Assembly: GCA_019135865.1 (NCBI GenBank)
Contig: JAGVVD010000058.1
Location: forward strand, 62,001-126,000
Direction of reading: 5' to 3'
Length of the DNA: 64,000 nucleotides
DNA from: Elusimicrobiota bacterium
GTDB lineage: Bacteria > Elusimicrobiota > Elusimicrobia > Elusimicrobiales > UBA9959
Shown: positions 22,542 to 22,846 of the stretch, one piece after another
Position numbering within the stretch: position 1 is the stretch's first letter
How the letters are laid out: the number at the start of each line of letters is the position of its first letter
Notes under the pieces: model-generated
The model's input: only the letters and a program-made list of their open reading frames with translations
Database searches by the model: none
Told to the model about the DNA's origin: nothing
Translations under genes and position numbers: made by a program

Positions 22542-22669
22542 TTACTAATGATAGTATTATAATATTTCGCAATTGTTTCAACACGCCGCGCGGGCGTTTT
22601 CCCCGTGCCCGCGCGCGCGAGGATATCGTTTCTTTTGAATCCGTCCGTTTTCATAAGTCACCGGCCAAT

Positions 22670-22714
22670 AAAAAAACCGTCCGACTGTCATGGGACCCGG
22701 AGACAGACGAACGG
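22670..22714 (-). terminator. Intrinsic terminator acting as riboswitch expression platform
   Basis: On the minus strand a 13-base stem (22702-22714 with 22677-22689, one T-T mismatch and one G-T pair) encloses a 12-base loop. It is followed directly by seven Ts (22670-22676). It lies about 50 bases after the aptamer and over 200 bases before the start codon, the arrangement of a transcription-attenuating riboswitch. Whether ligand turns the operon on or off cannot be decided from the sequence. Confidence 0.8.
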
Positions 22715-22760: not shown

Positions 22761-22846
22761 CTGTCTTCGGCAGCCAGGCAGTCCGCTGTCGGACCCTCGG
22801 CTTTGCGCCCCCGCCTTAAGGCGGGTTTGCTATTATCGCGACACCG
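22761..22846 (-). promoter_or_regulatory. GEMM-I-like cyclic dinucleotide riboswitch aptamer (A20 variant)
   Basis: The minus strand contains the two near-invariant GEMM-I blocks, AGCAAACC and GCGCAAAGCC, flanking a perfect short stem (CCGCC/GGCGG, UUAA loop). A second stem (GUCCG/CGGAC) and the closing segment GGCUGCCGAA follow. A short TGTC/GACA pairing closes the element. Aligned by eye to the Vc2 c-di-GMP aptamer, the base equivalent to G20 is A, the change known to shift this class toward 3',3'-cGAMP. The UUAA loop departs from the usual GNRA. Class recognition is firm; ligand identity is inferred. Confidence 0.8.

Follow-up and report, generated by a model that had tools for sequence, protein, structure and literature searches.

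A GEMM-I riboswitch of the U19-A20 subtype in an Elusimicrobiota family: a predicted transcriptional OFF switch with c-di-GMP as its likeliest ligand

The key ligand-site positions of the GEMM-I riboswitch Vc2 are G20, A47, and C92 (PMC11218506). In Geobacter, a single base at the first of these, A20, gives the pgcA riboswitch an approximately 1200-fold selectivity for cGAMP, and the A20G mutation converts the Gmet_0970 aptamer to c-di-GMP (PMC6456294). The cGAMP of Geobacter and Bdellovibrio is made by Hypr GGDEF enzymes, in which the Asp equivalent to D344 of PleD is replaced by Ser or Thr (PMC9140294, PMC6456294, PMC8835794). A20 is the sequence mark of the Geobacter cGAMP riboswitches, and here the base goes back to one change in a family without a recognised cGAMP synthase.

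The window, as the whole 64,000-nucleotide stretch of DNA that was analysed is called here, contains on its minus strand a single Rfam riboswitch, a GEMM-I (c-di-GMP-I) aptamer at 22840-22765, whose P1 helix reaches about 22844 and 22762. In a cmscan of the whole 64 kb window, this aptamer scores 61.5 bits against RF03167 (E 4.5e-12), which lies above the gathering cut-off of 59 bits, and in a search of the host genome it scores 61.6 bits against RF01051 (c-di-GMP-I), for which the cut-off is 35. The host genome, probably that of an uncultured member of the Elusimicrobiota (2.95 Mb in 59 contigs, 100% complete and 1.4% contaminated), encodes three GEMM-I aptamers, each with the sequence GAUAAUA-GCA and so with U19-A20.

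Position 20, which contacts the second base of the ligand, was assigned by covariance alignment. The basal P2 pair is formed by G21 (22830) and C46, so the base ahead of 'GCAAACC', at 22831, is position 20 and is an A, while the U at 22832 is position 19. The initial annotation had placed an A at the equivalent of G20 and proposed such an alignment for fixing the position; the alignment gives A, not G, preceded by U19, and its reading of UUAA instead of GNRA in the P2 loop (22819-22816, minus strand) was equally correct. At the ligand site, A47 (22804) and C92 (22770), the pairing partner of the ligand guanine, are both present, as befits a member of GEMM-I, and the A at 22831 is the base expected of GEMM-Ib. 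The GNRA tetraloop and its P3 receptor, common but not universal in GEMM-I, are both missing, the loop being UUAA and P3, GGGUCCGACAGCGGACUGCC, lacking UAA/UAUG. The UUAA loop was not accepted as a diagnostic mark: it is no family trait, the remaining two aptamers of the genome carrying GAAA loops. Compensatory changes are found in P2 among relatives, where GCAAACC with GGGGGCGC in some corresponds to GCAAAGCC with GGCGGCGC in others.

Compared by sequence, the junction contacts of the cGAMP aptamer 4YAZ, namely A9, A11, A12, U13, A14, A41, A42, G74, C75, and C76 (PMC7288161, PMC6274999), are all matched in the window RNA. Its J1/2 strand, A-U-A-A-U-A, which includes U19 and A20, fits every one of the five J1/2 contacts listed (A9 to A14), and the one 4YAZ residue without a match is C15, at the start of P2, where the window RNA has a G with a C partner. 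The A20 of the window aptamer is not a chance substitution, given that three such aptamers occur in the genome and that U19-A20 is kept in relatives.

Filing the RNA as c-di-GMP-I-GGC, following its Rfam label, was rejected on account of its diagnostic bases, A20 and A47, and because its RF03167 score ties with that against RF01051. The name 'GGC' appears to refer to the G20, G47, and C92 of the RF03167 consensus, of which the window RNA has only C92, the base common to both; at 22804, where that consensus has G, it has A. The two Rfam models diverge in P3, and the label probably arises from the short P3 without a tetraloop receptor, a feature of the RF03167 consensus and the window RNA alike.

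The leader is preceded by a sigma-70 promoter, TTGACA-16-TATAAT (12/12), at 22908-22881 on the minus strand, and an equivalent promoter is present in a relative of the same genus (L072). Transcription would start approximately 35-40 nt upstream of the aptamer, and folding places a short GC-rich hairpin followed by T6 (22872-22856) at the extreme 5' end of the transcript; L072 has a similar hairpin. Downstream of the aptamer, an intrinsic terminator hairpin with a U7 tract (-20.8 kcal/mol) spans 22716-22670. The 3' strand of P1 and its flank, CCGAAGACAG (22770-22761), includes C92 and doubles as the 5' half of an antiterminator, its partner being CUGUCUCCGG (22706-22697), a portion of the 5' arm of the terminator. 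The two segments are complementary save for one mismatch, and the antiterminator duplex, of 20 nt against 24 nt, has a computed energy of -18.1 kcal/mol. Predicted folds contain the antiterminator if the transcript stops before the 3' arm of the terminator, as in the fold of a 189-nt transcript, and the terminator in the full transcript. Of 14 such loci inspected across the host family, 11 share this two-state layout, and relatives from several genera place GUCUUCGG in the terminator 5' arm opposite CCGAAGAY of the aptamer (CCGAAAAU in L068). Since this layout is shared though the downstream genes vary between genera, the aptamer and its expression platform seem to be employed as a cassette.

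In the absence of ligand, CCGAAGACAG would be paired to the terminator's 5' arm, letting RNA polymerase read on into the glycosyltransferase/radical-SAM genes downstream. With ligand bound, P1 would close below C92, the terminator arm would be released, and transcription would stop near 22670. Antitermination and the binding of ligand, for which P1 and C92 are required, are mutually exclusive, so ligand should terminate transcription. The leader of the window thus looks like a working OFF switch, its direction being that suggested by the predicted folds.

Between the terminator and the glycosyltransferase gene, at about 22564-22510 (minus strand), lies a second promoter-like sequence, TATTATAAT, followed by a hairpin and GCTTTTT. 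A similar AT-rich motif with a CTTGCCG hairpin occupies the same place in the relatives L072, L073, L068, and L044, ahead of different downstream genes. Given this element, read-through of the riboswitch may not be the sole supply of transcripts for the genes downstream. Other genera of the family carry, in the 5' leader ahead of the same cassette, a G/U-rich element of approximately 120 nt with a closing GC-rich stem of some 15 pairs (L068:372-497, L070:377-497, L069:337-497, L053:4014-4165 and L056:4005-4165, both on the minus strand, and L044). The stem varies by genus, being of the CCCGCCCTTTTGG or the TCCCGTTAGAGGCGC type, while the architecture is kept; the window has the short hairpin instead. 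This G/U-rich element gave no match in Rfam.

The first gene downstream, at 22453-20306 on the minus strand with another in-frame ATG at 22654, encodes a fusion of a family 2 glycosyltransferase with a radical SAM domain, and the second, at 20432-18141 (minus strand), a B12-binding radical SAM protein fused to a glycosyltransferase 2 domain. A further radical SAM protein follows these two fusions, and an N-terminus very similar to that of the second gene's product is found after a related riboswitch in L074. The downstream genes are perhaps concerned with cell-surface or natural-product sugars.

The other two riboswitches of the host precede different genes. One (L001:1501-1579; G000:C54:24578-24656, minus strand) lies ahead of a gene for a PorV-like outer-membrane protein and is conserved in several families of the class; the PorV-like start codon is found a few bases past P1, which suggests translational control at that site. 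The third, also A20 (L003:153-245), precedes a gene whose product is secreted and carries QFIPATPLPQAL in its N-terminal part; the apparent ortholog in G225 (L063; QFIETSPLPQALL), as judged by the N-terminus, has a G20 aptamer.

Of the 294 genomes of the phylum, 108 contain RF01051. Position 20 was read in 109 aptamer calls, drawn from 80 genomic places and additional loci, with doubtful calls outside the host family at L088:3401, L090:2413, and L011:1775. Within the family, 38 of 41 aptamers have A20, all with U19, and the remaining three have G20 (in G212, G225, and G106); outside it, G20 is the rule in most. The division is complete at the PorV site, where A20 is found in 21 of 21 family members and in none of the 18 riboswitches from other families, all 18 of which are G20 (Fisher p 1.6e-11, uncorrected for kinship). 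On the tree of the regulated PorV-like protein, one change between G20 and A20 suffices, on a branch with support 100/99. At the PorV site, then, A20 sets the whole family apart in an orthologous riboswitch, and the difference is old and fixed. From its spread across the other families we infer that G20 is the older state, and the presence of A20 in every one of the 21 family members suggests selection rather than a neutral swap.

The enzymes that could supply a ligand were searched for in the same genomes. The host genome encodes five GGDEF domains, all five with the c-di-GMP-specific Asp at the PleD D344 site; none is a Hypr GGDEF with Ser or Thr for Asp344, the enzyme that would go with GEMM-Ib. 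Two of the five are GGDDF domains akin to the GSU1937-like enzymes of Desulfuromonads, with Asp replacing Ser. Asp is likewise found at this site in all 49 motif readings from host-family loci, some of which overlap so that some domains are counted twice. A DNA pattern for the canonical FKxxNDxxGxxxGD motif matches 49 of 51 family genomes, with five matches in the host, while its Ser/Thr-codon (Hypr) version has no real match in the 294 genomes of the phylum. This Hypr pattern had been widened to admit Tyr before Asn-Asp and domains without GH, with motifs also read directly, and it detects Hypr enzymes in 11 of 11 sampled Desulfuromonad or 'Deltaproteobacteria' genomes. On inspection, two matches to it in the phylum, L231 (GR, at a contig end) and L279 (not a GGDEF), proved not to be Hypr. 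The host genome lacks a SMODS CD-NTase, which 5 of 51 family genomes possess; PilZ is represented by one gene in the host.

The window itself encodes a GGDEF domain at 53772-53299 (minus strand), in a 513-aa open frame conserved in the family, with the motif GGDEI and the canonical Asp. The REC-GGDDF proteins of Elusimicrobiota (L007, L008) resemble GSU1937-like GGDDF proteins of Desulfuromonads and Nitrospirae (L267, L270-L272, L287, L288, L290, L293), with Asp, not Ser, at the specificity site.

At least 112 stretches in named genomes, a non-random sample with many draft genomes, match a strict DNA pattern for A20 GEMM-I aptamers; among the matches listed, A20 stretches occur in Bacillota, Chloroflexota, Omnitrophota, Planctomycetota, Gemmatimonadota, Actinomycetota, Elusimicrobiota, Nitrospirae, Desulfuromonads, and others. 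Hypr enzymes were found, among these listed matches, in 13 of the 98 named A20 genomes checked, comprising 11 of 11 Desulfuromonad or 'Deltaproteobacteria' genomes and 2 of 2 Nitrospirae, and in none of the remaining 85 when the DNA pattern was applied and its hits translated. One match in a Peptococcaceae genome (L261) is a chance match rather than a Hypr enzyme and was left out of the count. Among the same listed matches, U19 accompanies A20 in 73 of 100 aptamers from genomes without a detected Hypr enzyme against 4 of 14 from genomes with one (Fisher p 0.002, uncorrected for kinship), and U19-A20 is the commonest A20 type in the 85 genomes without. The clean split of the listed A20 genomes, 13 with and 85 without Hypr enzymes, shows that A20 alone does not predict cGAMP synthesis. 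The initial annotation had described natural A20 riboswitches as best known from Geobacter and relatives, and this stands insofar as the base sets cGAMP selectivity there (PMC6456294); it is, however, no Geobacter peculiarity, being common in phyla whose A20 genomes have no detectable Hypr enzyme. The Nitrospirae L149 and L195 combine an A20 GEMM-I aptamer with a Hypr-type GGDEF, and cGAMP signalling of the Geobacter kind may reach there.

With the aptamer, its A20, the promoter, the terminator, the alternative pairing, their conservation, and the absence of Hypr signatures established by computation, the RNA is best explained as a GEMM-I riboswitch of a U19-A20 subtype that turns transcription OFF and whose cellular ligand, in a judgment we make with modest confidence, is most likely c-di-GMP. 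Only for c-di-GMP, out of the two ligands known for GEMM-I, does the genome encode a recognisable synthase, and the orthologous PorV-site riboswitches of sister families, with their G20, lend this ligand support. U19-A20 would then be a second way of forming the same pocket, one fixed in the lineage, and may bind cGAMP too in vitro; the relaxed ligand choice that the initial annotation had offered as one option is, in vitro, possible. Its other option, a cGAMP-type aptamer, and with it the wider range of cGAMP signalling that it foresaw, found no support in the absence of Hypr GGDEF enzymes from the host genome and family and of a SMODS nucleotidyltransferase from the host genome: taken alone, the sequence would permit cGAMP, but the genome does not support it. 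c-di-AMP was rejected as the ligand despite one DAC enzyme in the genome, as C92 is kept, and the aptamer mutant that binds c-di-AMP is G20A with C92U.

The selectivity that A20 alone confers on the pgcA riboswitch counts against c-di-GMP, and it is conceivable that a single step moved the family's GEMM-I regulon over to 3',3'-cGAMP, with a relaxed Asp-GGDEF, a divergent CD-NTase, or a new enzyme as an unrecognised synthase. The A20 of all three host aptamers and of 38 of 41 in the family, the single well-supported change on the tree of the regulated gene, the 4YAZ-like pocket residues, and the reversal of ligand choice by A20G in Geobacter all speak for this reading, and a synthase of unrecognised kind would escape the enzyme searches used. 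It is nonetheless unlikely, as family and phylum lack Hypr GGDEF enzymes, SMODS is absent from the host and confined to 5 of 51 family genomes, and the same synthase gap would need to be filled in all 85 listed A20 genomes without a detected Hypr enzyme. Still more doubtful is its extension, in which one G20-to-A20 step, served by a non-Hypr synthase, shifted the regulon from c-di-GMP to 3',3'-cGAMP as part of a hidden cGAMP world; if true, this world would be a large one, reported by the many A20 riboswitches found in Bacillota, Chloroflexota, and Omnitrophota. A sensor whose U19-A20 pocket takes both dinucleotides with similar affinity, the cell using whichever is present, also seems improbable. 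A cGAMP riboswitch aptamer has been crystallised with both ligands (PMC6274999), position 20 has been described as influencing selectivity without acting as a hard filter (PMC9262584), and the title of a 2018 paper refers to adenine protonation enabling c-di-GMP binding to cGAMP riboswitches; yet the Geobacter A20 aptamers that have been measured discriminate strongly, and a dual capacity would lie idle in the host, where a cGAMP source was not found among the genome's enzymes. Least probable by far is a degenerate aptamer that has lost tight binding with its GNRA loop and receptor, leaving the leader a constitutive attenuator. The UUAA loop and the short P3 without receptor motif would fit this, as would the precedent of Bacillus thuringiensis Bc1, which is unresponsive to c-di-GMP in in vitro transcription (PMC11218506), but the junction residues are all intact, the score exceeds the gathering cut-off, P2 shows compensatory changes in relatives, and the two-state platform is conserved.

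The locus belongs to a known riboswitch class, and the base at its selectivity position is fixed in the lineage. Either U19-A20 is an ordinary c-di-GMP pocket, which limits the A20 rule, or an unrecognised cGAMP synthase is widespread. The orthologous G20 and A20 aptamers at the same PorV-like gene form a clean natural pair for deciding the ligand, through which the rule of thumb that A20 means cGAMP becomes a testable question.

Among described systems, RF01051 c-di-GMP-I shares with the window RNA the three-way junction of P1, P2, and P3, A47, C92, and the GCAAAC and GCGCAAAGC core; the window RNA differs in having A20 in place of G20, a UUAA loop, and no P3 tetraloop receptor. RF03167 has the same short P3 without receptor, but its G20/G47 consensus against the A20 and A47 of the window makes the Rfam label misleading here. 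The Geobacter GEMM-Ib aptamers (pgcA/GSU1761, Gmet_0970, pilM; 4YAZ) agree in A20, U19, A47, C92, and the J1/2 adenines, whereas the basal P2 pair is C15-G40 in 4YAZ and G-C in the window, and the host genome, unlike theirs, has no Hypr GGDEF. Cytochromes or pili lie downstream in Geobacter, in place of the glycosyltransferase/radical SAM genes of the window, and the cGAMP-responsive pilM riboswitch is an ON switch (PMC9262584), whereas the window platform reads as OFF. In this last respect the window RNA is closer to Cd1 of Clostridioides difficile, an OFF switch whose aptamer and terminator can form side by side, in competition with an antiterminator (PMC9262584), although in Cd1 a G (G11) stands at the equivalent of G20 and the P2 tetraloop docks in a receptor.
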